Shown here one piece after another: positions 8,000-22,155 of a stretch of DNA of 22,155 nucleotides. The notes under the pieces are model-generated. The model ran no database searches. It worked only from the letters and a program-made list of their open reading frames with translations, and was not told the DNA's origin. The DNA is taken from positions 1 through 22,155 of IMG/VR virus record IMGVR_UViG_3300027763_000257. One strand, given 5' to 3'. A program made the translations under genes and the position numbers. The DNA is from a virus. Each line of letters starts with the position of its first letter. Positions within the stretch are counted from its first letter, which is position 1.

Positions 8000-8027
8000 A
8001 CCCCGACTTCGGTCGGGGTCTTTTTTT
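8000..8027 (+). terminator. Intrinsic terminator with UUCG tetraloop
   Basis: ACCCCGAC (8000-8007) pairs with GTCGGGGT (8012-8019) around TTCG, followed by C and seven T residues (8021-8027). This is a textbook rho-independent terminator for the left-arm transcript. The T-run overlaps the stop codon of the converging giant gene (8026-8028). On the minus strand the hairpin is not followed by a U-run, so it should stop mainly rightward transcription. A second, weaker 6-bp dyad (TGCTAG at 7943-7948 with CTAGCA at 7957-7962) lies upstream. Confidence 0.9.
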
Positions 8028-11000
8028 AATCGCCGTATGCTTCTGCGGCGGCTTGCTTCAAGTAGGGAGCCAGCTTACGGTCAAGCTGTACACCGTGGTG
8101 CATCTCATTTGTAATACGATCCCGCGCTTTTACTGACTGTGTGATTGTCTTTTCACTGATACCCAGTTCAGGGTACTTAGCACCAAGCTCAAACAACTTC
8201 TCACGTGCCTCCATCATGCCGTCGGCGTCCCCTTCACGCATCGCCCCATAGTACTTCTTCAGCGCGTTCTTCTCTATAGCCTTGATGGCCTTACCCTTCT
8301 CGGTCATGTACGCATTCTCTTCGTACTGCTTCATCAAGTCAGCAGGAGCAAAGCCAAGCACTTGCATAGCAGCGTTGTATCCGTTCACATCCCCAACCGC
8401 ATCACCGCGCAACGTGTTAGCCCCTTCGATTGCGTAGCGACCACCTTTAAAGACGTTGCGCAGACCCACAGGGAGCATAGCCTCAATACCACGCTCATAC
8501 TGACCTTCAGCAATCAAGTCTTTTGCACGGAACAAACTGTCAGCAATTGAGTAGGGTGCACCCAATGCGGTTTCAAGGATTTGGGACAACGCACTAGCAT
8601 CTGCCTTGCTACCCTTTTGCTCACGCCACAACAAGTCAGTCCAGCCCACACGGTCGGCAACGCTCAGGTTAGTGAAGTAATTGACTGGGCCTTTGAACGC
8701 AAAGTCACCAAGGAACTCACGCATGACGGTATCAAAATCATCGTCGTCATCGCCTTGGAACATGTTGTAAGCGGCCTCCGCAATCCAATACAAGGGTATA
8801 CCCTTAACACCCGCAAAGAGCGCGGACATGCCGTAGATGCCAAGAAGTTGCCTACGAGCCGCCTTGATTGCTTCAAGCTGTTCACCTGTCGCACCCTTGG
8901 TAGGGAGCGAACGGATCATGGTGTCGAACAACATGTAGTACATGCTGAACGCAAACCGCTTGAACACCATCAAAACTTTTCCTATGTCACTCTGACCGAG
9001 GCTGGGGCCGGATAACGTGCTACCTGCGCCATGCGCGTATTCCACAAGTGAGAGGGCTTTATCAATTGCCTTGGTTTGCTTCTCAGCATTGCTCAACTTG
9101 GAGTTCTTGAGTTTTCCCATCTCCAAGTCATAGGCGGCAACGGCTGTGATCTCACGGTTCATGCGCTCGGCATGGTGGAACATGAAAGAACTTACCAACG
9201 CAGTTTGGCGCATAAGTTTGTTTGCGCTGCCGTAGCCCGATGAGTTGTTGTTCTCTGAACTTAGTGCACTCCGTGCGGTAGACGTGGCCAGTAGACCACG
9301 GGCTTTCATGGCTTCAATGAGGTCTTTGTATTGGGGAGCCTTCCCGTTGTTAACTAAGTTCTCAATGGAAGTCATGGCTTTTTGATCACTGACTTCGCCC
9401 GTCAACTCAGTAACCTTTCGTGACAACCCACTGCTTGTGTAGAGTTTCAGGGCATTTTTCAAGGCCACATAGGACTCTTTGAACCCATACTCACCACCCA
9501 GTTGCGGGAAGACAACCAACGGAGTTTGCAAAGTGTTAACAGCCGCAGAGGATACGTTACCAGCGAGGTTGTAGTAGAACGCACCGGAACTTGCGAACTG
9601 CGACCAACCGGACAGGGTGGGTTTCATAGCGAACGCACGGCGACCTTCAAACTCTTTAATGAGTTCTGTCCCATAGGTATTGACATCACCCCGTGCGGTA
9701 TTAGCCGTTGCAACCATTTCTGTCACAAGACGCTGTAGTTCAGGGCCGTACTGCATACGCCCTAACTGACGTGCAGTATTACTGCTCACACGGTCAAACA
9801 CATAGGCGGCATTGTCAATGTAGCCACCGATACCAGTACGTTTTTGGCGGCCCTTTAAGATGCTGGCTTCAGGCATGGCCTTAACAACAAGTTGTATCAA
9901 GTCGTCAATAGCATCTGTACCGGCACCGTTGTCTTTCATGATCTTCATGATTTCAGCCAACATAGTGCCAGACGGTACGGTCTTGGTTGTCAGTTGATCT
10001 GCACGGGAGTAAGCGTCAAAGTTTGTAGCACCACTGGCTTCTAGTTTCTTACGCGCAAAGTCACGTTCAGCCTCGGACTCAAAGGCTTCTTTCTTAGTGT
10101 CAGTACCCACGTCATACTGCAACCAGAACGGCCCTTCGCGGAACAGCGGCGCATAGTGGTCAACACGTACAGTACTTAACTCAAACAGAATCTTCTGGTA
10201 AGCAGACGCAGCCTGTGCTTTGTCACCCACCGTAGCCCCGATGTTGCGCTCAAGCGAGATTAAAAACTCTGCATCAAGTTTTTTGTAGGTGGCAAACAGA
10301 TCGCGGTATAACTTCTGGCCCGTTGGTGTAAGTTTGTTAAATCTTGCACTGAGTTGCTTCCACTCGGCTACTTTTGTGGGGCTGCCTATGTACTTGCTCA
10401 CGTCTGCGTATGGGTTTACGTCCACACGAGTAGCGTCATGTACCAAGGTAGACCACGCCTGATACTCAGGAGCCTGTCGAAATGCAGCTAAACGGTCATG
10501 CAACGGGTGCATGGCTTCAAGCATCTTCTCTTGATAACCCGCCATCTCTTCAAGGGTCTTGGCAAATCGAGGCGCAGAATCACCTAAATATTTGCTACCA
10601 GCTTCACCCAAGGCAGACAAGTTCAATGACCTGTACATCATGTACCGGCCTGTACGCCCAACCTTTTCTGCGGCCTTCCAAAACCCAACAGCCTTCTCAC
10701 TGTTCATGACGGGTTGCTTGCGTATGGCCTCCCCCGCCTTTGCAAATATTTCTTGCACAACGTTGGGGTTGTGCAGGGACTGCGCGTACAAAGTTTCACC
10801 CGTGCGTGTCTCAGGTGGTGGGCTGATGATGTCGTTGAGCATGCGGTCAACCGCATCCAACGCAGTCTTATATTTAGGGGGCAAGCGTAACAACTGACGC
10901 ACGGCGTTAACCAAACGCTCCCAACCAGTAAGTTTCTCACCAGTAGGCTTGAACTCTTTCAGGCGGTTGCGGAACGCATCATTGCTCCACGCCTCGCCTG

Positions 11001-14000
11001 CAAACTCTTGTATATCTTGCGCACCATAAGTTCCTTCAGTGCCTTTCTTCATTTGATTGAAGAGGGTCATGACCTGACGGGTTACTGGATGCGATGGGTT
11101 GTCCAGCGTGTGGGACATGGTTGCATGTGAAGACTCATGCAAGATCTCATACTCAGTAGCGCCATCACGCAGGTAGACGGTGTTGGTCTTTGGATCGAAC
11201 ATGGACTTCTCAGCGCCATATACGAGGTTCACATTGCCAACAAGTTTGGATAAGTTCTGCGCAAAGAGTTCTGCTGTCTTAGACGACCCACTGTCCGCCA
11301 GCCCTTGCAACGCACCCGCCAAGTTGTTGTTGGCAAGCTGTTGGAGCACCGCCGGGTGAGCCTGTGTATGTAATGCGGCTAGGTCTGCATCAGCTTCATA
11401 GCCTGTGGTGTCAGTGTCAGCGTTATTGTATAAATCGCCGTAGGGATCTTCCGCTGCCAACTCCCGTGCAAGACGTTGCATTTGGGCTTTACGTTTGCCC
11501 GCTTCAGTTTTTGTACCTTTAGCGTCTGCAATTTCTTCTTCTGTGGGGGCGTACTCGCCCTCTGCTTTGGCAGCAGCGGATTCTTCTTCCACTTGCGTCT
11601 TTGTACCCTTGCGGATGTCCTGCTGCTTCTGCTGCTTTGCCCGTGCTGTGCTAGAACGTCTGGCTTCTTTTGTGTACAGAGCAATCTTCTGGTCTAAGAA
11701 TGCAACAGATTCAGGGGACAAGTTAGCACGTGACCATGCCTCGGCATTCTTGGCGTGGATACCACCCTGACCTTGGAAGAACGCAGCTTCGGCTTGATTG
11801 CCAAACAATGGCTCCGGGCCTTGCGGATTGTCCGCAAAGGATTTCATCTTTGAGTTGCGGTAGGGCTGTGGTTGGTACACCAAGTCGTTTGCAATTGCGT
11901 CAAGTGCAAATTCAGGGGCTACCTTGCCAAAGTAGGCTTTGGCATCTGTTGCTTGTGTGTCGAGCTTGACTCCGCGCCGACCAAGTTTCTCGTTGATTAC
12001 GGGCAGTTCTGCGGACAGATCAGGGCGGTCTAAGACACCCCGTGGGGCGGCGGGGGCTTCTTGTCTTTGCGTTTCTGCTTGCTGGGTTTGAGGGGGCGCA
12101 GTGCCAAGGTCTACTCCTGTTGGTTCAGTTAGTGCAGGGGGCTGTTGTTCTTCTCGTGCAGCAGCACCTCCAACATCCTGCTGAGTAGGAACATCTCCAC
12201 CTCGTTCAGGTGCCGCAGGGGTTGGGGTAACTCCAGCGGCAACGGGTTCGCTAACCACGCTAGGGCTTCCTCCACTTGGGGCGGCGTCAGGTCTTGTAAC
12301 ATCAGGTGCTCCAAATGCAAAAGTTCGGGTTTGCTCTTGCTGTTTTTGCTTGGTAGGGGAAAGCGTCTCAGCCTTCATCTCGGCACGATGTGCTTTGACT
12401 TCTTGGGGATCAAAGGTGCTGATCAGATCATCGTATGCGCCTTCATCAATCTTCCCCGCAAAACTTGGGTTCTCTAATGTCTGAATGAGATTGCGGCGAC
12501 CATCAACGGTCTCAAGGTCTGTGCCCAACAACCCCATGCCAACTTTAGACCGATCAGATATCTTGAGATTTTTCAGTGTGTCCACAGTGACAGGATCACC
12601 GGGCGTGTTCGTAGCTACAGGGCCAAACGCAAAGTCACGTGTAGCTTGCTGCTGCTCGGCACGGCGCTGTTCCAGTGCGGGTTTGAACATACCCCCAGTG
12701 TTGGGGGTAGGTGGCACTTTGGCAAATGCACTACCTTTAGCTTTCTTAGCATCTTCTACCGCTTGCTCTTCTAGCAACTTAGCGCGTTGCGCTTCCATCT
12801 TAGCAATCTCGGCTTGAACGCCAGCTTCCGGGGTGTACCCTTCCTTGGGCCGCATTTCTTCCATACGAGCTTGCAATGCTTGCAACTCAACTTGGCGCTG
12901 ATTGAAGTCGGGCAGTCCTTCAAAAGTAGCCGCTAAACCAGCTTCGCGTTGAGCGCGGTCATTTGCAATTTGAGCATCGTACTCAGCAGACTTTTCTGGA
13001 GTAAGCGTACCCGCAGCGGCTTCTTGAGCGCGTAGTTGATTGACGTATGCTTCGGCTTCCTTGGTATCTCGGAATTCTTTACGGGCAGTCAGACCTTGGC
13101 TTGTGCCCGTTGCAGTACCAAACACACCGCCACCGATTGCACCCTTAACGAACGACTCTTTGTAACGCTGGATGTTCTCGGGGTCAAGCATGCCCTTGGT
13201 GCTACCGGCAACTTGTTCTGCTGCGGCATTGATAGACTCCTGCGCAGCCTCAGTGAGACCTTCAGTCCCTGCGGTTTTGGCGGCTTCCTTGGCAATGTAC
13301 TTCCACACCTTTGGCGCAGCACCGGACTCTTTGGCCAACTGCTCAACGACCTTCAGCCTGCCGTAGCCACCAAGCTCACCCAGCAATTTGCCGGGGACGA
13401 TGGTGTCCAAGACGGAAGAGATGCCCCCCGCAAGCGCGGCGATCCCCGGCTCCATCTCGCCAGTTTCTCGGTAGATGTTCTCAAACACTTCGGGTGCGTT
13501 TTGTGCCAACGAGCCAAGGTACACGCCACCATACATTGCGCGTTTACCAGCAACCTGACCAGCTTGTTTAGCAGCGGTCTCTGCCACTGCCATACCAGCG
13601 CGAGACAAAGGGCCAACCGCTTGCGCAGCCCTCATAGCACCAGCACTAGCCATCCGTGCGGCTACAGCTTCAGCACCCACACCGGGGATCAGCGCAGTCA
13701 AGGCTGTTGGGCCAAGTTCACCAATAGTTTCAGCACCGTATTGCAGGGCTTCGTATGGGTTATCAATCTCAGTGTAAGACTTGAACTGTGTGGGGTACTT
13801 GGCTTCTAACGCTTGGCGTGAGACATCAGCTTCCTCCATCTGACGTTTGGCGTAGTCATCAAAGCCAAGTTTAGACGCGCCCATGGCGGGGAGGATATCT
13901 CCCAGAGCGATACCTGTTTCCCCCATACCACGCATGAAACCCTCTTTCAAGAGGGTGCCGATTCCTACATCTCGCTTGGGGATTTTAAAATCATACTTTT

Positions 14001-14091
14001 GCGCAAGAAGCCCCACCTGTTTGTTTAATTCCTCGGCAGAGATATTGTCGGCAAAACGAACCGAGCCAATCTTAGGTAGGGTAAGGATCAT
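8026..14091 (-). CDS. Giant polyvalent-type internal virion protein with zincin-like domain
   Basis: This 2021-aa protein starts with ATG, with GAGGAG inside the end of the upstream gene. Residues 5-27 (LPKIGSVRFADNISAEEL) match a short N-terminal motif of phage ejection proteins. Residues 120-335 are Gly/Ala-rich amphipathic segments including GTEGLTEAAQESINAAAEQ. Residues about 340-900 are coiled-coil and Pro/Gln-rich linker. HESSH at 985-989 is a zinc HExxH motif, and EFAGEAWSN (Glu1029 or Glu1033) supplies a likely third ligand. The rest is mostly helical, with hydrophobic stretches near 1750-1777 and LPVGLRNVFKGGRYAIEG near 1871-1890, resembling the LPD38-type domain of large polyvalent proteins. 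Such proteins are packaged and delivered with the DNA. Protease activity is inferred. It is the last gene of the right arm. Confidence 0.85.
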   Translation of the reverse strand: MILTLPKIGSVRFADNISAEELNKQVGLLAQKYDFKIPKRDVGIGTLLKEGFMRGMGETGIALGDILPAMGASKLGFDDYAKRQMEEADVSRQALEAKYPTQFKSYTEIDNPYEALQYGAETIGELGPTALTALIPGVGAEAVAARMASAGAMRAAQAVGPLSRAGMAVAETAAKQAGQVAGKRAMYGGVYLGSLAQNAPEVFENIYRETGEMEPGIAALAGGISSVLDTIVPGKLLGELGGYGRLKVVEQLAKESGAAPKVWKYIAKEAAKTAGTEGLTEAAQESINAAAEQVAGSTKGMLDPENIQRYKESFVKGAIGGGVFGTATGTSQGLTARKEFRDTKEAEAYVNQLRAQEAAAGTLTPEKSAEYDAQIANDRAQREAGLAATFEGLPDFNQRQVELQALQARMEEMRPKEGYTPEAGVQAEIAKMEAQRAKLLEEQAVEDAKKAKGSAFAKVPPTPNTGGMFKPALEQRRAEQQQATRDFAFGPVATNTPGDPVTVDTLKNLKISDRSKVGMGLLGTDLETVDGRRNLIQTLENPSFAGKIDEGAYDDLISTFDPQEVKAHRAEMKAETLSPTKQKQQEQTRTFAFGAPDVTRPDAAPSGGSPSVVSEPVAAGVTPTPAAPERGGDVPTQQDVGGAAAREEQQPPALTEPTGVDLGTAPPQTQQAETQRQEAPAAPRGVLDRPDLSAELPVINEKLGRRGVKLDTQATDAKAYFGKVAPEFALDAIANDLVYQPQPYRNSKMKSFADNPQGPEPLFGNQAEAAFFQGQGGIHAKNAEAWSRANLSPESVAFLDQKIALYTKEARRSSTARAKQQKQQDIRKGTKTQVEEESAAAKAEGEYAPTEEEIADAKGTKTEAGKRKAQMQRLARELAAEDPYGDLYNNADTDTTGYEADADLAALHTQAHPAVLQQLANNNLAGALQGLADSGSSKTAELFAQNLSKLVGNVNLVYGAEKSMFDPKTNTVYLRDGATEYEILHESSHATMSHTLDNPSHPVTRQVMTLFNQMKKGTEGTYGAQDIQEFAGEAWSNDAFRNRLKEFKPTGEKLTGWERLVNAVRQLLRLPPKYKTALDAVDRMLNDIISPPPETRTGETLYAQSLHNPNVVQEIFAKAGEAIRKQPVMNSEKAVGFWKAAEKVGRTGRYMMYRSLNLSALGEAGSKYLGDSAPRFAKTLEEMAGYQEKMLEAMHPLHDRLAAFRQAPEYQAWSTLVHDATRVDVNPYADVSKYIGSPTKVAEWKQLSARFNKLTPTGQKLYRDLFATYKKLDAEFLISLERNIGATVGDKAQAASAYQKILFELSTVRVDHYAPLFREGPFWLQYDVGTDTKKEAFESEAERDFARKKLEASGATNFDAYSRADQLTTKTVPSGTMLAEIMKIMKDNGAGTDAIDDLIQLVVKAMPEASILKGRQKRTGIGGYIDNAAYVFDRVSSNTARQLGRMQYGPELQRLVTEMVATANTARGDVNTYGTELIKEFEGRRAFAMKPTLSGWSQFASSGAFYYNLAGNVSSAAVNTLQTPLVVFPQLGGEYGFKESYVALKNALKLYTSSGLSRKVTELTGEVSDQKAMTSIENLVNNGKAPQYKDLIEAMKARGLLATSTARSALSSENNNSSGYGSANKLMRQTALVSSFMFHHAERMNREITAVAAYDLEMGKLKNSKLSNAEKQTKAIDKALSLVEYAHGAGSTLSGPSLGQSDIGKVLMVFKRFAFSMYYMLFDTMIRSLPTKGATGEQLEAIKAARRQLLGIYGMSALFAGVKGIPLYWIAEAAYNMFQGDDDDDFDTVMREFLGDFAFKGPVNYFTNLSVADRVGWTDLLWREQKGSKADASALSQILETALGAPYSIADSLFRAKDLIAEGQYERGIEAMLPVGLRNVFKGGRYAIEGANTLRGDAVGDVNGYNAAMQVLGFAPADLMKQYEENAYMTEKGKAIKAIEKNALKKYYGAMREGDADGMMEAREKLFELGAKYPELGISEKTITQSVKARDRITNEMHHGVQLDRKLAPYLKQAAAEAYGD

Positions 14092-14097
14092 TACGGA

Positions 14098-15903
14098 TTA
14101 CTCCTCAGCCTTCATTAAATCCGCAAACGAAGGAACACTAACCCCGCCGCCACCTTCAGCAGCAAGCAACGAAGGCATTGCATTTGCGCTGTACTTTGTC
14201 CATTCTTGTTGCATATACCGTTGGGCTTCAATTGGGGGCATTTTTTTGGCTTTCTCTTGGGCAATGCGGTAATCAGAACTGGCTTGGAAAGCGGCATACG
14301 CTTTTTGTTCCACATTTGCCAAAGCCGCCGTTGCACGTTTATCCCCCGCCGCAATTTGACCTTTAATAATATTAAGTTTTTCTCGGCCTAATTGAAGCTG
14401 TGCGGCAGAAGCTGCTGCGCTTTGATTAAGCTGCCGCTTTTTAAGATCCAACTCACTCAACCCAAGTACGCCTTGATTATTTAAAGCTGCTTGTTGGTAA
14501 TTACCCTGTTGTTGGGTTTGATAGAGGTTTAACTTTGCGGTGTCGGTGTAATGGTTACCAGTCATTCCAAGCTGTGTGGCAGTTTGCAAGTCTCGACTTG
14601 CCTCTCTACCCGCCGTTTGAGCAGCTTGGTAATTGCCTTTTTTGGCTTGAACCTTTTGTTGCTCAAAGTTATCACGTGCATCATCCAGCTTATCCTTAGC
14701 AGCGCGGTTTGCAGCTTCGCCTTGGATTAAAGCGGTAATACCTTCGCGGCCTTCTTTATTCAGAGCACCTGCAAGTGTGCCCTCTCTACTGCCAGCAATA
14801 CCAAACCCAGCACGCATTAAGTTCAAGGCACGCCCAATTGCCGAATCTTTCTCTTGGGCAGCTTCACGTTTGTTGTACTTTTCTTCTCGGGCCGCATTAC
14901 CGGGTTCGTCAAAACTTTCCAATTCTTTTTGACTGGCCTCAACAGCCTTATCAAACGCCGCTTTTGTTTTTGCAGGCATGTCTCCAATTAACTTGCTGTA
15001 GTCCGTCAATCCGGGCACAGGGGCCATTGTCATACCGGCAAGTGTAGGCATCTGGAAATTACCCGCGCCGGGGATTGCACCACCGGGAGCAGCACTAGGG
15101 GCAGCGGCGGGAGCGGCGGCACCGGGGGTGTTGGGGATGGGGGCGTCTGTATAAGCAGAACGGCGAGTATCTGGGTATGCGGCAGAGGGAGGTGGGGGCG
15201 CAGTGGAATCCCCAGCAGCATATCTATTCAGCATGTCTGAGTATGGCGTATTCCCGCCAGCCCCAATACGGGGGATGCCTACAGAATTTACATCAGAATC
15301 ATAAATACCCAATGCCCGACCAATGCGCGGTACTCCTATAGCGTTGGCAGCAGCTTCACCTGTTTGTGCAAGATAGTTATATGGGCCAGCAAGAATATCC
15401 CCCGCCGCTGCTGGGAGCGTTAACAGTGCCGCACGATCACGCCGTGCTTGAGCTTCCCGTTCTTTGTTCCGTTTTGTTTGCTCGTCATCAGACACCAGTC
15501 CTTTGTTTTGATACCGCTCAACCTCCCCACCACCTTCAAACGCAATGATGCCACCGCCAGCATAGGACTGCGGTAGGTTAGATGGCAGGGCTTCAACACC
15601 TTGGCTTTCTTGGGCGGCTTGCTGCATCACCTGCTGGGCAATCGGGGGGCCATCTGCTGGGGGCTGTGGCATGCCAGCACCAGCAACGTTTTGCGCCATC
15701 TTGGCCGTGGCCTCTGCCAACTTTTTGGTCAGGTCTTGGATCAGGGGGATGCCAACATATGGTTGTATCGAACCGTTCTGAACACCTGCAACAAGACTTT
15801 TCTGTATGGCTTGTATCTCTTGCGGGTTGTTTGCGCGTCTAGCCATCGCTGCCATTGAAGCAGCGCGGCGTGACATATCATCTTGAAGGCTATTGAGGCT
15901 CAT
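14098..15903 (-). CDS. Helical internal virion/ejection-type protein
   Basis: This 601-aa protein has AAGGA overlapping the stop of the preceding gene as its ribosome binding site. Residues 1-110 are helical. Residues 114-135 (YAGGGIIAFEGGGEVERYQN) carry a Gly-rich motif common in structural proteins of uncultured phages. Residues 188-214 contain two copies of a VPRIG-type motif. Residues 235-300 are a Pro/Ala-rich linker, and 312-580 are long charged helices with Gln-rich coiled coil. Position right before the giant protein gene recalls the T7 gp15-gp16 pair, which forms the DNA-ejection conduit, but sequence similarity to gp15 was not seen. The role is inferred from context and composition. 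Confidence 0.75.
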   Translation of the reverse strand: MSLNSLQDDMSRRAASMAAMARRANNPQEIQAIQKSLVAGVQNGSIQPYVGIPLIQDLTKKLAEATAKMAQNVAGAGMPQPPADGPPIAQQVMQQAAQESQGVEALPSNLPQSYAGGGIIAFEGGGEVERYQNKGLVSDDEQTKRNKEREAQARRDRAALLTLPAAAGDILAGPYNYLAQTGEAAANAIGVPRIGRALGIYDSDVNSVGIPRIGAGGNTPYSDMLNRYAAGDSTAPPPPSAAYPDTRRSAYTDAPIPNTPGAAAPAAAPSAAPGGAIPGAGNFQMPTLAGMTMAPVPGLTDYSKLIGDMPAKTKAAFDKAVEASQKELESFDEPGNAAREEKYNKREAAQEKDSAIGRALNLMRAGFGIAGSREGTLAGALNKEGREGITALIQGEAANRAAKDKLDDARDNFEQQKVQAKKGNYQAAQTAGREASRDLQTATQLGMTGNHYTDTAKLNLYQTQQQGNYQQAALNNQGVLGLSELDLKKRQLNQSAAASAAQLQLGREKLNIIKGQIAAGDKRATAALANVEQKAYAAFQASSDYRIAQEKAKKMPPIEAQRYMQQEWTKYSANAMPSLLAAEGGGGVSVPSFADLMKAEE

Positions 15904-15912
15904 AATTTTTCC

Positions 15913-17751
15913 TTAGTGCATCGCGTTGTACAAGCCCAAGTTTGCAATACCTGATCGCACAGTACCGCCCTTCTTTTTACCCATCGCATTTGATAGCGCC
16001 GTAGCGCCGACCGCAGCCGTGCCAAAGCCTGCCAACTGGTTGCCTAGTGTAGGTTGCGCTTGATACTGGTTTGTAGTCGTACCGGGAAGAGCATAACCGC
16101 GCAACAGAGCGTTGAACTGGTTAAGGGACTGCATTGGCGCTTCTCTTCCTTGCGCGTAGTTCTGAATCGCTTGGTTGATGATCTGCTGCTCCTGCGCCTG
16201 CTGCTGCCCGCCAAGTTGATTCTGTAGGCTAAGGATGCCTTGTTGCGCAGCAAGCTGCTGGGTGCCCAACTGACCCAACTGACCCGCCGATTGATTAGCT
16301 AGGCCGTAACCAGCTTGTTGTCCTGAGACACCTTGAAGACCAGTCTGCGCACCCTGCATGCCTTGAGCCGTACCCGCCAGTTGACGATCCACCCCTTGCA
16401 TACCGGCTTGGGCACCTTGAATACCCAGACCAGCCCCCTGCATACCTTGGGCTGTACCTGCAAGTTGTTGTTGTAGACCTTGAAGCCCCACGCCAGCCCC
16501 CTGCATACCAAGGCCGTACAAGCTACCCGCTTGGCCCAAGCCAGAAAGGCCCGCTTGTTGACCCGCCATAGCTTGGCCAATACCTGACAAACCAAGTTGA
16601 CCGCCCTGCAAGGCAGTACCCAGACCAGATTGCGCCCCGCCCAAACCTTGAAGACCAAGATTGGAGCCGTACTGCATAGCCTGAATGGCTTTGTCGTAAG
16701 CGGCTTGTTGGCCCTGAGCACGAATGTTTTCTTGCTGTGTAGCCAAGGCACGGTTAGCTTCAGCATTCTCGATAGCCTGACGAGCACCACCAAACGCCCC
16801 CGCACGTGCAGCTTGAGATCCACGTTGGGTACGGGCAATATCAGCTTGACGTTGGGCGGCGGCTACTTGGATATCAGTAACATTTTGCTGATACGGCGAC
16901 ATGTAAGCACTGATTGCATTGCTTGCGTCATATTGCTTAGTTACAGGGTTGTATACATTTCTTGCTGCATTGGCGTAATCCCCCCCTGCGGCGGCTTGTT
17001 GAGCCGCATAGTTACGTGCTTGCTTTGTAACATCCTGTCCTAACGACTCAGCGCGAAGACCCATACGCCCAATGTCAGCGGCAGACTGTCCATACTCCTG
17101 CGCTTGGGGGGCTAACCCAGCGGCATAGGCACCGTATCCCGAACCCATGTTGCCGTAGTATTGGCCACCCTGCATACCCGCTTGCTGCCCTAACCGCCCG
17201 GACTGTTGGCCTTGCATACCGGCTTGAGCGCCCATGTTGCCGTAATATTGGCCCCCTTGAGTACCAAATTGTTGACCCTGTTGGCCAGACTGGAACCCTG
17301 CATTGCCGTAACCTGCGGCTTGAATGGCGCTATTTAAACCGCCTTGGCCAGCAGTGTTGGCGTAACCCGTTGCTTGGTTGAACTGACCCGGCATTTGCAA
17401 GTTTGCAGCGTTGTACTGAACCTGCTGCTGCAAGGGGCTAAACCCTGCTACATACCTTGAAGGATCGGCGCTGTAAGGTACAAAAGGTTTGGTGCCTTCG
17501 ATTTCAAACGTGCTTGGTTTGCCATCTACGCCGGGTATTTCCTTGGTTCTAAACAACTCTTTCATTGCCCCGCCAAGCACTGTTTCAACTTGGGGACGAA
17601 GGTATTCGGGTATGTTGGATTGGTTAACCGTAGTAGTAGTTGGCTGGTTACCGCCCCCACCACCATAAATACGCCCACCGGGTTTTAAACGGGTTACGCT
17701 TTCACCAAGAGGTTCTCCCATTGCTTCAAGTTGCCTGCGGGAATAGTTCAT
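15913..17751 (-). CDS. Gly/Gln-rich virion protein with heptad repeats
   Basis: This 612-aa protein starts in an ATGA overlap with the upstream GNAT-like gene. Residues 1-115 include a Gly run and a globular part (NIPEYLRPQVETVLGGAM). Residues 150-215 are a Gly/Gln/Tyr-rich stretch with GGQYYGNMG twice. Residues 281-335 (SAYMSPYQQNVTDIQ, then ARAGAFGGARQAIENAE) match a motif I associate with structural proteins of marine and freshwater phages. Residues 367-478 form heptads of type L-Q-G-x-x-x-G, and the C-terminus reads KKKGGTVRSGIANLGLYNAMH. It is probably a virion component of the tail or internal complex. No enzymatic motif was seen. Confidence 0.8.
   Translation of the reverse strand: MNYSRRQLEAMGEPLGESVTRLKPGGRIYGGGGGNQPTTTTVNQSNIPEYLRPQVETVLGGAMKELFRTKEIPGVDGKPSTFEIEGTKPFVPYSADPSRYVAGFSPLQQQVQYNAANLQMPGQFNQATGYANTAGQGGLNSAIQAAGYGNAGFQSGQQGQQFGTQGGQYYGNMGAQAGMQGQQSGRLGQQAGMQGGQYYGNMGSGYGAYAAGLAPQAQEYGQSAADIGRMGLRAESLGQDVTKQARNYAAQQAAAGGDYANAARNVYNPVTKQYDASNAISAYMSPYQQNVTDIQVAAAQRQADIARTQRGSQAARAGAFGGARQAIENAEANRALATQQENIRAQGQQAAYDKAIQAMQYGSNLGLQGLGGAQSGLGTALQGGQLGLSGIGQAMAGQQAGLSGLGQAGSLYGLGMQGAGVGLQGLQQQLAGTAQGMQGAGLGIQGAQAGMQGVDRQLAGTAQGMQGAQTGLQGVSGQQAGYGLANQSAGQLGQLGTQQLAAQQGILSLQNQLGGQQQAQEQQIINQAIQNYAQGREAPMQSLNQFNALLRGYALPGTTTNQYQAQPTLGNQLAGFGTAAVGATALSNAMGKKKGGTVRSGIANLGLYNAMH
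16318..16653 (-). repeat. Seven-residue (21-nt) tandem repeat within the Gly/Gln-rich virion gene
   Basis: Residues 367-478 divide into 16 consecutive heptads with Leu, Met or Ile at position 1 in 14 of them and Gly at position 3 in most (for example MQGAGLG, IQGAQAG, LAGTAQG). A longer 28-residue unit, LAGTAQGMQGA to LAGTAQGMQGA, occurs once. The DNA copies differ at many silent sites, so the repeat is kept at protein level and is not a recent slippage product. Confidence 0.85.
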
Positions 17752-18179
17752 ATTAGTACCTCAACAAGGGTATTTCTGGGTTCAAAACCGGCTCGTGACA
17801 AAAGGCGCACCATAGACTCCCGGCAGAATGCTTGGATCTTAGTCGCACCACGAAGTTTTACCAAGGCTTTTAGTTGCTCCAGAAGCTCTGGGTTTGCAAT
17901 AAATTTACCACCAGTTGTGGTTACAAACGCTACACGATGCAGTGGGTAGCTAATAAATGAAATAGTCATTGCCCCGTGTATTTTGTTCTCTTCATCCACT
18001 GCCACTAGCAAAAGCCACTGCCCCGAGGTTAAAAATGCTTGGACATGTGAGGCGTCATACCCCGCAGCCCACTCAGGGAAATCCCCGCTCTTATCAAGAG
18101 CTTCTTCAACAAATGGTTGCACCAGAGGCCAAACTTGTTGGACATAGTTGGCTTCAACCGAACGAATGGTAAGGGTCAT
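17748..18179 (-). CDS. GNAT-like acetyltransferase-fold protein
   Basis: This 143-aa protein has ATGA overlaps at both ends, with the upstream Y/Q/P-rich gene and the downstream Gly/Gln-rich gene. The fold order is GNAT-like: an N-terminal strand (MTLTIRSVEANYV), a helix, strands LLLVAVDEENKIHGAM and ISFISYPLHRVAFV, then a helix and ESMVRLLSRAGFEP, the typical end of motif B. The usual acetyl-CoA loop (Q/R-x-x-G-x-G/A) is not clear; GGKFIANPELLEQL replaces it. Similar small GNAT proteins are common among phage structural genes. It might acetylate a virion or host protein or be catalytically dead. The fold is fairly clear; the function is inferred. Confidence 0.72.
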   Translation of the reverse strand: MTLTIRSVEANYVQQVWPLVQPFVEEALDKSGDFPEWAAGYDASHVQAFLTSGQWLLLVAVDEENKIHGAMTISFISYPLHRVAFVTTTGGKFIANPELLEQLKALVKLRGATKIQAFCRESMVRLLSRAGFEPRNTLVEVLI

Positions 18180-19672
18180 TTTTTGAGTATCCCCGCAATC
18201 CCACCCTCTGCACGGCGCATCACGTTGGGGGTGCCACGGGAACCCGAAGACCGACCCACAATAGCTTTTGAAGGCCCAGAAGAAGTCGGCACTACAGGCT
18301 GCGGCTGCGGCTGTTGATACGAATCGTCATATCGCGGCTGTTGGTAACTAAATGGGGACTGCATTTGGTATGGGTTGTACTCCTGCGACGAGTACGGGTT
18401 GTACTGCTCCTGCGACGAGTACGGGTTGTATGACCCAAGCGATTTTTCATACTGTTGGTACGGGTTAAGCTCCCGCCGTTGGCTCTGTGGCTGTTGATAG
18501 CTAAACGGACTGTACTGGGGTTGCTGGGGCTGCTGATAGCTAAACGAGCTGTACTGCTGCTGTGGCGGCGGTTGTTGATAGTTGTACTGGGGTTGCTGGG
18601 GCTGCTGGGGCTGCTGATAGCTGTACTGTTGTTGTCGGGGTTGCTGGTACGGATACTCTACAGACATCGGCTGTGCGCGAGATTGCTGATAGGGTTGGTC
18701 ATAATAGCTAAACGGGTTGTATTGCTGCTGCGGGGCGTTGGTGTACGGATTAAATGACTGTTGTGTCTGCATCGAAGGCGCAGACATCTGCGGGCCGTAG
18801 TTATTTAAACCACCGTAAGCCTGAAAATCCTCTCTATTTATACCGCTATTCCGCATAAATTCTAAAGTAGTACTAGCATCCGTATTAGGGTTAGCTTTAC
18901 CAAAACTACCAATAGCATCGTTAATATCTCTACGCGACATGCCAGAGTTAAATGCTGGTGACCGCATGGGCTGTGTGCCATATAAACTAGTACTAAACTG
19001 TGTAGAGGGCCGTGCGTAATTTTGATACTGCGCATTGTAAACAGGCTGAGTAAACTGACCAGAACCTGCCATAGGTCTGCCAGTAGGGGAAGTCATACCC
19101 GCGTTTTGAATTAAGGCTTCGTAGTTGGGATCTGATACTGGCCCGCCTTGGGTTGTTAAAGCATTTCTAATGGCACTATCAGAGTAACCTTGTTGTAGCA
19201 ACGAGTTGTAGTACTGCCCCGATTGGTTATATGGCGACCCACCAATAGCTTTAAGAGCGGGGTTGTTGGAATCTATGACTGAAGCCCCCGCAGTAGTACC
19301 AGTAGCTTGGGTTTTGTTAGTTACAGTGTTATTGGTATTATCGCCACCATAACCCCCACCATCAAAACCACCTATCATGCCCGCATTAGTGCCAGCACGA
19401 GCATTACCTTGGGAATCTGTACCCATTAGATTTGCTATAGTAGATGACGCATAGTTGCCCAGTCCATACCCTGTTTGGCCACCACCTACACCAGCTTGAG
19501 CCGCACCTGCGCCAGTACCAGCTAACCCACTACCAGTACCGGCAAATCCCATACCCCCACGGGCTTCTCCACCAGTAGAGGGATCGCCCCCACCTCCGGG
19601 GCCATCCCCACCACCACCGGGATAAAGACGGATGCCAGCCTGATAGCCGCTATGTTTGCTTGGGATAATCAT
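18176..19672 (-). CDS. Virion protein with Gly-rich head and Tyr/Gln/Pro-rich prion-like tail
   Basis: This is a 498-aa protein with AAGGA before the ATG. Residues 14-115 are Gly-rich and low in charge. Residues 140-300 hold two small helical modules (GYSDSAIRNALTTQGG and MSRRDINDAIGSFGK to INREDFQAYGG). Residues 305-458 are almost wholly Tyr, Gln, Pro, Asn, Ser and Phe, with seven YQQP motifs and several NPY motifs. The last 14 residues (VMRRAEGGIAGILKK) carry a GGIA motif also seen in neighbouring virion proteins. No family is recognised. Position in the tail/internal gene block makes it a likely virion component. The first half of the gene is more A/T-rich than the repeat half. Confidence 0.75.
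   Translation of the reverse strand: MIIPSKHSGYQAGIRLYPGGGGDGPGGGGDPSTGGEARGGMGFAGTGSGLAGTGAGAAQAGVGGGQTGYGLGNYASSTIANLMGTDSQGNARAGTNAGMIGGFDGGGYGGDNTNNTVTNKTQATGTTAGASVIDSNNPALKAIGGSPYNQSGQYYNSLLQQGYSDSAIRNALTTQGGPVSDPNYEALIQNAGMTSPTGRPMAGSGQFTQPVYNAQYQNYARPSTQFSTSLYGTQPMRSPAFNSGMSRRDINDAIGSFGKANPNTDASTTLEFMRNSGINREDFQAYGGLNNYGPQMSAPSMQTQQSFNPYTNAPQQQYNPFSYYDQPYQQSRAQPMSVEYPYQQPRQQQYSYQQPQQPQQPQYNYQQPPPQQQYSSFSYQQPQQPQYSPFSYQQPQSQRRELNPYQQYEKSLGSYNPYSSQEQYNPYSSQEYNPYQMQSPFSYQQPRYDDSYQQPQPQPVVPTSSGPSKAIVGRSSGSRGTPNVMRRAEGGIAGILKK
18299..18760 (-). repeat. Imperfect tandem repeats encoding the Tyr/Gln/Pro domain
   Basis: Exact repeats occur at two scales. A 24-nt unit at 18380-18403 recurs at 18407-18430, a 27-bp period encoding NPYSSQEQY units. 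A 25-nt unit at 18511-18535 recurs at 18583-18607, encoding QQPQQPQY. The rest is degenerate GCTGCTG/GTTGTTG-type sequence. Unlike the heptad repeat gene downstream, these copies are identical at DNA level, so slippage or unequal recombination may change the copy number between related phages. Confidence 0.85.
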
Positions 19673-19681
19673 GATTGTTCC

Positions 19682-20716
19682 TTACGCGAACATGTATTTG
19701 CGAGGGTTGATTTCACGGCCTTGGGACTTACGGCCAGTACGCGCTTGGCGCACTCTGTCCATCATGGCATAAAGTTGTTTGGCACCGGCATCGGAAGAGC
19801 CATTACCAAGATGAGAGACCACATCAGCGGGGACTACAAACTCTTCATTGGCCAAACGGGCAGGGCGTTTACCGGCAATGCTTGCGGGGATGCTATCAGA
19901 CATGCCGTCACCCGGGCCACGTAGCATACGGCCACCATCAGAGTAGCCGCCTAGATCAGAGATGCCGCCACGGGCCATACCCGCTGGACTCATTGGTTCA
20001 TCGCCAACCACATGGTCATAGCCACCCGAAGCTAGACTAGCAATACCGCCTCCAGCCAAGATGGCAGGGCGGTAAGTACTGGGATTAAATACAAACCGCC
20101 TCAGTGGGCCGTTGTATTCGTCTGGCTCCTTGGGGTCTTCCCTTCCACCAATAGCACCAGCCAAAGCCGCAGCACCTAGTTTGTACTTGTTGTCCTTTAT
20201 GTACTCTGTTGGGTCTTTGGCTATTTTGTTCAGACCTTCCATAAATGAAGGTGGTGAACCTGTACCGGGGATAGCGGGGGCAGCGGCGGGGGCAGCTTGC
20301 GCAACGGCAGGGGCAGCTTGTGCAGCGTTAGGAAGAAGACTAGTAATGCCGGGGGACGCGGGGGCAGCGGAAGCAAAACTTGGAAGCCCGGGGACATCTA
20401 AAAAATTAGTACCGGGGGCACCGGAAAACCCTGAGAGCGCGGTCGGGGCAGCAGTTGCGTTCATTGCAGCCGCATTAGCTACAGTTGGGGCCATGCTAGT
20501 CATAGCAGCGGCAGGAGCAGCTTCAGCAGCGGCCAACCCAGCAGCCTCTGCACCACCAAACATGCCACCTAAAGCAGGGGCAAACGCTGCGCCTGCGCCG
20601 CCAGTTAGACCACCAAGGAGAGCACCTTTAAGAGGATCACCGCCAGTTATGGCGGCAGAGCCACCGCCTATTGCCGCACTAATCAGCGCCGCTTCACCAA
20701 TTCCGCCCATTGCCAT
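19682..20716 (-). CDS. Gly/Ala-rich virion protein with conserved phage C-terminal domain
   Basis: This 344-aa protein has AAGGAG seven bases before the ATG. Residues 3-60 are hydrophobic Gly/Ala repeats (GGSAAITGGDPLKGALLGG) able to form membrane-active helices. Residues 60-155 are a low-complexity Ala/Pro linker. GGGIASLASGG at 222-232 and ARGGISDLGGYSDGG at 248-262 carry the Gly motif shared with neighbours. Residues 265-340 (LRGPGDGMSDSIPASIAG, then EEFVVPADVVSHLGNG, then YAMMDRVRQARTG) match a C-terminal module I recognise from many uncultured phage virion proteins. The function of the module is not known to me. The membrane activity is inferred. Confidence 0.82.
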   Translation of the reverse strand: MAMGGIGEAALISAAIGGGSAAITGGDPLKGALLGGLTGGAGAAFAPALGGMFGGAEAAGLAAAEAAPAAAMTSMAPTVANAAAMNATAAPTALSGFSGAPGTNFLDVPGLPSFASAAPASPGITSLLPNAAQAAPAVAQAAPAAAPAIPGTGSPPSFMEGLNKIAKDPTEYIKDNKYKLGAAALAGAIGGREDPKEPDEYNGPLRRFVFNPSTYRPAILAGGGIASLASGGYDHVVGDEPMSPAGMARGGISDLGGYSDGGRMLRGPGDGMSDSIPASIAGKRPARLANEEFVVPADVVSHLGNGSSDAGAKQLYAMMDRVRQARTGRKSQGREINPRKYMFA

Positions 20717-21149: not shown

Positions 21150-22155
21150 TCAGCGCCTCCCGTCAGGTCTGATATCGAGTCTAGGAGCGCCTAGCTGCCA
21201 AGTTGTGCCTACATCTGTGGAAGCCATCTTAAATATCATCTGCCGACCACGAGCGCGGGTAAAAATAGTCCCTGTGTATTCTTCGGTAATTACATATGCA
21301 GACCCTTTGGTAACAGTGCCATTAACCGCATTACCAGTACCAGACCCCGAGTTCTGCATGGGGTAGATCGTCATGGTGGTGTTGGGGGTTGGTATTCCTG
21401 ACCCCGGTTGCCCCGCTATAGCAGAAGAACCTGTAAATGTTAAGTCGGGTAGCACGCGCCACACAAACCCAAAGTTGTGCCCGTCCCCGATATCAAACTC
21501 AGAGGAAGATATATACGCAGGTAGGGCATTTAGATTCCCAAGCACGTAGGAATCTACCCCGTCCTCATGTTGTACGAGTTCGTTATCGTATGTGGCAGCA
21601 ATAGGTAGTGGCAGCAGACCGGAGTCTAGCCATGCGGAACGCCCTATATCTCCGTAGTACCAAATGTTTTCCGAGTAGTTGTACACCACGTAGCGGTCAC
21701 TAAAATTAGAATCTGCGGAGCAGTAGAACCACCAGACTTCATTAAAGCCTTCGTTGGTGCTGCAATAAACTTGTTGCGCTTGCAGTGTGTTGAAATCATC
21801 AACTATGTAACGGCGCAGATCACAGTTCAATGTCTGCACCCGCCCGTCGTATTTATAGAATTTATCAACCGCCATCCAATACACCACACCAGAGGCAATA
21901 GTAACGGCGTTAGGGCCAATAATAGACACATTGTCCGCAATTAATTGCGCTGTCCATACATAGGGTGGCCCTACATATTGCAGTGAGTATATCGAGGAAT
22001 CCGTGAACACCACAATCTCTTGGCGCGACTGTACGGCGGTAATGATTGATGAGCCATGAGACAAACGCAAGCTACCCGCTTGGTTAGTTGCCTCGGGTGA
22101 CCACGTGTATGGGTCTTCTTGATCTGACCAGCGGATCAACATGGGGTCAAGGTAG
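21150..22155 (-). CDS. Tail/DNA-stabilisation-type beta-rich virion protein, 5' partial
   Basis: The frame is open through the right edge (residues Y-L-D-P precede the first Met at 22142), so the true start lies outside. At least 330 aa are visible, almost all beta-strand. The sequence includes LIRWSDQEDPYTWSPEATN, then QSRQEIVVFTDSSIYSLQYV, NEVWWFYCSAD-type strands and a run of aromatic residues (ENIWYYGDIGRSAWL). This pattern matches a family I know as P22 gp10-like or tail-tubular-protein-B-like: stabilisation or tail-tube proteins of podoviruses that close the neck after packaging. It begins the transcribed order of the right arm within the window. The family call is recognition by eye. 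Confidence 0.75.
   Translation of the reverse strand, partial: YLDPMLIRWSDQEDPYTWSPEATNQAGSLRLSHGSSIITAVQSRQEIVVFTDSSIYSLQYVGPPYVWTAQLIADNVSIIGPNAVTIASGVVYWMAVDKFYKYDGRVQTLNCDLRRYIVDDFNTLQAQQVYCSTNEGFNEVWWFYCSADSNFSDRYVVYNYSENIWYYGDIGRSAWLDSGLLPLPIAATYDNELVQHEDGVDSYVLGNLNALPAYISSSEFDIGDGHNFGFVWRVLPDLTFTGSSAIAGQPGSGIPTPNTTMTIYPMQNSGSGTGNAVNGTVTKGSAYVITEEYTGTIFTRARGRQMIFKMASTDVGTTWQLGAPRLDIRPDGRR

Follow-up and report, generated by a model that had tools for sequence, protein, structure and literature searches.

A Tyr/Gln/Pro-rich tail in a hypervariable, mostly disordered protein (predicted) placed by gene order in a podovirus DNA-ejection cluster

The low-complexity tail under study is part of a hypervariable protein of 498 aa, predicted to be mostly disordered, whose gene, judged by synteny, is a member of a podovirus DNA-ejection cluster. 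The window, meaning the whole stretch of 22,155 nt that was analysed (IMG/VR record IMGVR_UViG_3300027763_000257), encodes it on the minus strand. We propose that the protein is an ejection-cluster accessory and that its Y/Q/P tail acts as a flexible tether between end tags, packaged or ejected, a reading we consider plausible if somewhat short of probable. The original prediction had described a phage virion protein, which stands in the sense, given by synteny, of a virion-cluster gene.

Composition of the tail and layout of the protein

18176..19672, minus strand: target gene encoding 498 aa, hypervariable and predicted to be disordered for the most part (ORF list, 34 distinct homologues, AF2)
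19607..19672, minus strand: N-terminal leader MIIPSKHSGYQAGIRLYPGGGG, residues 1-22, a shared module (leader comparisons and searches)
19283..19606, minus strand: Gly/Thr/Asn-rich disordered linker, residues 23-130 (sequence; AF2 pLDDT 33-49)
19055..19282, minus strand: small helical domain 1, residues 131-206 (AF2 helices 138-194, block pLDDT mostly 71-89)
18965..19057, minus strand: core motif QFTQPVYNAQYQNYARPSTQFSTSLYGTQP, about residues 206-236 (in 34/34 members; alignment)
18803..18961, minus strand: small helical domain 2, residues 238-290 (AF2 pLDDT about 91; in 14/34 members)
18299..18760, minus strand: Tyr/Gln/Pro/Ser-rich low-complexity tail, the feature under study, residues 305-458 (composition, repeats, AF2)
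18179..18283, minus strand: conserved C-terminal block GPSKAIVGRSSGSRGTPNVMRRAEGGIAGILKK, about residues 464-498 (homologue alignment, GGI motif)

The predicted coordinates of the tail, 18299-18760, were exact and correspond on the minus strand to residues 305-458 of the 498-aa ORF. The 154 residues contain 30.5% Q, 16.9% Y and 16.2% P, and Y, Q, P and N together make up 68.8%, as the claimed dominance of Tyr, Gln, Pro and Asn implied, but Asn (5.2%) was ranked too high, with Ser at 13.0%. The best 100-aa window of the protein held 74 Y/Q/P/N residues, compared to 42 or fewer in every other gene in the window, and the count of seven YQQP motifs was confirmed exactly. The tail had also been called almost free of charge. 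It is low in charge (9.1%, net -2), at about 40% of the level in typical window proteins (20-25%), but with 14 charged residues of 154 "almost free" goes too far. In the AF2 model 324 of the 498 residues had pLDDT below 50, tail included, and no fibre or beta fold was seen. Helical domain 1 has a homologous stretch in 17 of the 34 target members, as well as in a long version of the 344-aa protein (p344) encoded nearby, and islands weakly similar to the target helical domains occurred within long p344 versions. A Leu-rich ORF on the plus strand (18455-18757), antisense to the tail, is best read as a mechanical shadow of the CAG/CAA codons and not as a gene.

The prion-like composition that had been predicted was borne out by a PLAAC-like 60-residue score, re-implemented here with approximate emission values, in which the target ranked second of 720 ORFs (top 0.3%). 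The target thus passed a PLAAC-type check, but the check was not specific. Several members of the 612-aa DNA-ejection family (p612), the window's own included, scored as high, and because this neighbouring protein equals the target, the score is no special mark of the latter. The composition of the tail is real, yet alone it is no evidence of condensation. A PLAAC survey of 370,617 phage proteins found 5040 prion-like domains (1.35%), with proteins for attachment and penetration as the largest functional group (PMC5694896). The target resembles these domains in having a Q/N-rich low-complexity region, but differs from them in being Y/Q/P/S-rich and not N-rich, and in belonging to an ejection-cluster gene of hypervariable length. 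Taken without its cluster context, the Y/Q/P tail would be one more phage prion-like region.

The suggested FUS-like or mussel-like chemistry was not supported. The target is alike in its Tyr-rich, repetitive low-complexity sequence, but it departs from FUS-type domains in lacking the SYGQ/RGG grammar (no RGG repeats were found) and consistently even sticker spacing: only 6 of 33 relatives had aromatic residues spaced more evenly than in shuffles (p < 0.05), with p = 0.09 for the window. Mussel adhesive protein differs in its Lys/Tyr-rich repeats; the tail has almost no Lys (0.6%).

The ejection-cluster neighbourhood and shared end motifs

21150..22142, minus strand: P22 gp10-like stabilisation protein, incomplete at the window edge (phrog_3287)
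19682..20716, minus strand: 344-aa protein (p344) with tape-measure-type C-terminal motif GPGDGMSDSIPA.. and three GGI motifs (relative L114, motif scan)
17748..18179, minus strand: GNAT-fold-like 143-aa protein, overlapping the target by 4 nt (AF2 pLDDT 88)
15913..17751, minus strand: 612-aa protein (p612), DNA-ejection protein family (phrog_4287 matches of relatives)
17653-17751, minus strand: leader MNYSRRQLEAMGEPLGESVTRLKPGGRIYGGGG of the 612-aa protein (sequence)
14098..15903, minus strand: 601-aa ejection-cluster protein with YAGGGI motif (motif scan)
8026..14091, minus strand: 2021-aa polyvalent/DarB-like protein (LPD39 and DarB-like similarity)

The genes follow one another on the same strand in the order P22 gp10-like, 131 aa, 344 aa, target, 143 aa, 612 aa, 601 aa and 2021 aa, and across family members synteny places the target between the gp10-like tail gene and the genes for ejection and large internal proteins. 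The profile phrog_4287 ("DNA ejection protein") was matched by 8 of 11 relatives of p612 (best 2e-19); the window's own copy fell below threshold. Searches with the target gave no match in Pfam or PHROG, neither to known ejection proteins nor to other families, and none by tblastn in INPHARED. As in P22/T7-type ejection clusters (including PHROG 4287), the target gene comes after a gp10-like gene and before ejection and large polyvalent genes; unlike in those clusters, it stands as an additional gene between the gp10-like gene and the ejection genes, without detectable family homology. A scan of bacterial genomes for the gp10-like protein gave matches on MAG contigs of mixed phyla alone, so no host was assigned.

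The GNAT-like gene stood next to the target wherever the next gene was present, at the same spacing, with one exception that lacked the overlap. The AF2 model of the 143-aa protein shows the order b-a-a-b-b-b-a-b-a-b-b, which we take to be that of the GNAT fold, and this order, together with the canonical GNATs found in syntenic position, suggests a GNAT-fold-like protein. No significant match was obtained for it in Pfam, or by hhalign for its family with the GNAT of Roseobacter phage CRP-901. In that phage the gene order is similar, a GNAT takes the place of the 143-aa protein, and the protein ahead of it is a different one, of 120 aa. Judged by eye, the usual acetyl-CoA loop is missing, and the 143-aa protein may therefore be inactive.

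The motif [x]AxGGI was present in 95% of target proteins, 85% of 601-aa proteins and 57% of 344-aa proteins, compared to 2-5% in shuffles, and was found in no gp10-like or GNAT-like protein. In 35 of the 36 proteins bearing it, the C-terminal copy lay 12-14 residues from the end. Shared sequences also mark the opposite end. Of the 34 target members, 22 carry leader MIIPSKHSGYQAGIRLYPGGGG, and some proteins of the 612-aa and 344-aa families start with it as well. A second leader, SYSRRxLxAxGE..., unites the 612-aa family, the window's copy included, with two target members. A third module, GRxGDTMLAHINPxEA, is widespread in the 344-aa family and heads two target members. When viral DNA was searched with a pattern for the first leader, 44 stretches were returned, in which the tagged genes belonged mostly to the 612-aa and 344-aa families and the target, with at least two further families; one of these was a PHROG 8003 virion structural protein, with a PHROG 4470 acyltransferase encoded ahead of it. 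No match to the leader peptide was obtained by tblastn in INPHARED, a search for which so short a query is insensitive, and a literature search found no printed occurrence of the string.

Other proteins of the cluster region also varied in length and content. In loci without the target gene the 344-aa protein had a median of about 832 aa, compared to about 346 aa in loci with it, which may point to a split or to a transfer of domains, and the 612-aa family ranged from 254 to 1723 aa (L094:8429-13600). DUF4214 domains were seen in ejection-cluster proteins at or beside the target slot (L105:7243-7995 and L113:3125-5566).

Length change, repeats and competing explanations

18583..18607, minus strand: exact 25-nt DNA repeat, copy 1 (repeat analysis)
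18511..18535, minus strand: exact 25-nt DNA repeat, copy 2, spacing 72 (repeat analysis)
18407..18430, minus strand: exact 24-nt DNA repeat (YNPYSSQE), copy 1 (repeat analysis)
18380..18403, minus strand: exact 24-nt DNA repeat (YNPYSSQE), copy 2, spacing 27 (repeat analysis)

The 34 distinct homologues in viral contigs (190-498 aa) were all gathered via the C-terminal block ...GRSSxMRGTPNVMRRAEGGIASL, and all 34 contain the central motif FxQPxYxxQYxNY...VSxYGTxP; a syntenic relative without the C-terminal block reached 599 aa. Mean column identity was 25% in the target family versus 59% in the GNAT-like protein, and the coefficient of variation of length was 0.26 versus 0.01 for the next gene. 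Between the central and C-terminal blocks the variable region measured 50-243 aa in 33 members, with 14 ± 3% aromatic, 25 ± 6% Q/N and 7.7 ± 2.5% charged residues, so that tail sequence and length vary while composition is held. Some relatives bear Gly-rich, (DPYV)n or (SPTPV)n repeats instead of the Y/Q/P stretch; the latter two, low-complexity repeats of other chemistry in the same cluster region, were found in L047 and L085, respectively. The syntenic target-like protein of L047 (12695-14494) has a HINT/intein-like domain within its (DPYV)n repeats (Pfam PT-HINT 3.5e-4, below the curated cut-off), and in L085 (4973-8089) a long p344 relative carries about 20 or more tandem SPTPV repeats.

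A third exact repeat pair of 20 nt (spacing 81) was found in the tail. Repeated 15-mers numbered 27, against a mean of 1.9 in codon-shuffled controls, and there were 10 codon-identical 5-residue pairs against 0.6 expected from synonymous shuffles, in which 46% of codons were shared among identical 5-residue pairs as compared to 67% in the tail. The seven YQQP copies, on the other hand, are spelled by six different codon sets, so most are not fresh DNA duplicates and are either ancient or preserved as protein sequence. The DNA-level identity of copies noted earlier thus applies to the three exact 20-25-nt pairs, which exceed shuffles, but not to most YQQP copies. Codon usage in the tail deviates from that of other genes (CCG 54% vs 14% of Pro codons, TCG 35% vs 12% of Ser codons), a pattern that amplification of a small seed would produce.

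Repeat copy number was compared across related contigs, as had been proposed, and differed between L093 and L095, which are 98.5% identical over 6.4 kb and show a 60-nt repeat-number difference in the target gene. This difference sits in an N-terminal repeat outside the Q-rich tail. Between L119 and L126 the central part is kept and the tails are re-sized, with flanks about 90% identical; the 99.8% identity of this pair is confined to the GNAT gene, and tail change at that level was rejected. Turnover of the target gene is fast, and for the Y/Q/P tail itself the evidence lies at about 10% divergence and none closer. The claim of ongoing, repeat-driven length change is in this way upheld by both pairs for the gene, but the closer pair does not extend it to the tail. 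An assembly error is an unlikely origin of the tail because independent contigs bear Y/Q/P-rich tails at the same place.

Under the tether reading, the Y/Q/P-rich tail would be a flexible, low-charge spacer, a role suggested by its composition, which is conserved while length runs from 50 to 243 aa. It would tie the leader, the two small helical domains and the central motif to the conserved C-terminal GGI block, whose probable docking partner is another virion or ejection protein. Selection would hold the bulk composition (aromatic, Q/N, few charges, disorder) and not sequence or length, with repeat slippage or recombination continuing to change the size of the tail, and the disordered chain could be packed in the head and then threaded through the narrow tail channel. 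This reading draws on the syntenic cluster position, the predicted disorder with two helical islands, the near-constant place of the C-terminal GGI motif, the steady length of the next gene, the leaders in common with the DNA-ejection and 344-aa proteins, and the repeats of other chemistry in the equivalent region of L047 and L085. Two points count against a packaged spacer: the window's ejection protein is below the PHROG threshold, with its relatives alone matching, and host-facing proteins are also typically hypervariable. A host-facing adhesin or host-range protein, variable through receptor or defence arms races, would fit a target far more variable than its neighbours and the modular swapping in its family. 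We consider it unlikely, given its position among ejection genes, the leaders it has in common with the DNA-ejection protein, an AF2 model without fibre or beta fold and a C-terminal end that is the conserved part. Equally improbable, in our judgement, is a functionless tail that arose neutrally as repeats slipped in a disordered region tolerant of such change; DNA repeats above codon expectation and length differences between near relatives speak for it, but the open frame and similar composition are kept in 33 diverged members and conserved blocks always lie on both sides of the tail.

Condensation of the FUS type, in which Tyr stickers and Gln/Ser/Pro spacers would concentrate ejection proteins in an internal compartment as the head assembles, draws on the high PLAAC-like rank and the 17% Tyr. 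It is nevertheless quite unlikely: the adjacent DNA-ejection protein scores as high, aromatic spacing beyond shuffles was confined to the 6 of 33 relatives, the target has no RGG or nucleic-acid-binding partner domain, and relatives swap the stretch for repeats of other chemistry. Decidedly unlikely, too, is an injected effector resembling T4 internal proteins, with the helical domains as payload, the shared leader for targeting and the tail as linker. An interchangeable shared leader with a variable payload would suit it, and T4 internal proteins are likewise diverse with only the targeting sequence conserved (PMC3012670), but the payload is small, is present in about half of members alone and matched no known effector family.

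Leaders and the slot gene

To our knowledge, ejection proteins are poorly resolved and incorporation signals have been established for few phages. The N-terminal parts of P22 gp7 and gp20 direct their entry into procapsids (PMC8402733), and the diverse T4 internal proteins have a targeting sequence as their only common feature (PMC3012670). The leaders described here are short N-terminal sequences found on otherwise unrelated predicted proteins; the P22 and T4 likenesses may be parallels in mode of action and do not imply membership.

When the 344-aa gene directly preceded the 612-aa gene, a leader or N-terminal GGG was found in 0 of 36 612-aa proteins. With at least one gene between them, GGG was present in 62 of 69 and a recognisable leader in 46 of 69. 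The state changed about 12 times on the gp10-like protein tree (94 loci). Among nine independent pairs, leader and slot gene were concordant in eight, opposed in none and without difference in one (p = 0.008), a comparison to be read with the caveats that the elements are adjacent and one recombination cassette would move both, that the leader or GNAT search itself brought in some of the slot-plus loci, which are thus enriched, and that the leader patterns were written after the sequences were seen. The slot gene is usually GNAT-like, but in seven leader-tagged loci it encodes an unrelated helical protein, and with that protein between p344 and p612 the next gene still has a leader. These seven slots count against simple acetylation of a leader lysine by the GNAT, a candidate mechanism that is weakened accordingly.

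A broader and doubtful possibility is that a large group of environmental podoviruses uses a sorting code for its ejection proteins. Interchangeable N-terminal leaders of about 20 residues (MLIPNKFNGYSRDGIRLY-Gly4, SYSRRxLxAxGExLGxS-Gly4 and others) and AxGGI would mark unrelated proteins for one ejection complex, the slot gene, whether GNAT-like or unrelated helical, would encode a leader-reading assembly factor, and the Y/Q/P tail would be a hypervariable tether between tags. If true, an end-tagged disordered protein and a shared leader tied to the slot gene would constitute a testable targeting system in diverse, mostly uncultured phages.

The unrelated slot protein, apparently all-helical and about 150 aa long (GKLEWFGGNQDALNMYHAF...), was seen in L148, L040, L150, L153, L188, L155 and L185. 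In the set L147-L189, a 20-residue leader, M[LI]IPNKFNGYSRDGIRLY, occurred at the N-terminus of several unrelated ejection-cluster proteins, and in L160, L161, L164, L169 and L170 it was present on two genes per genome.
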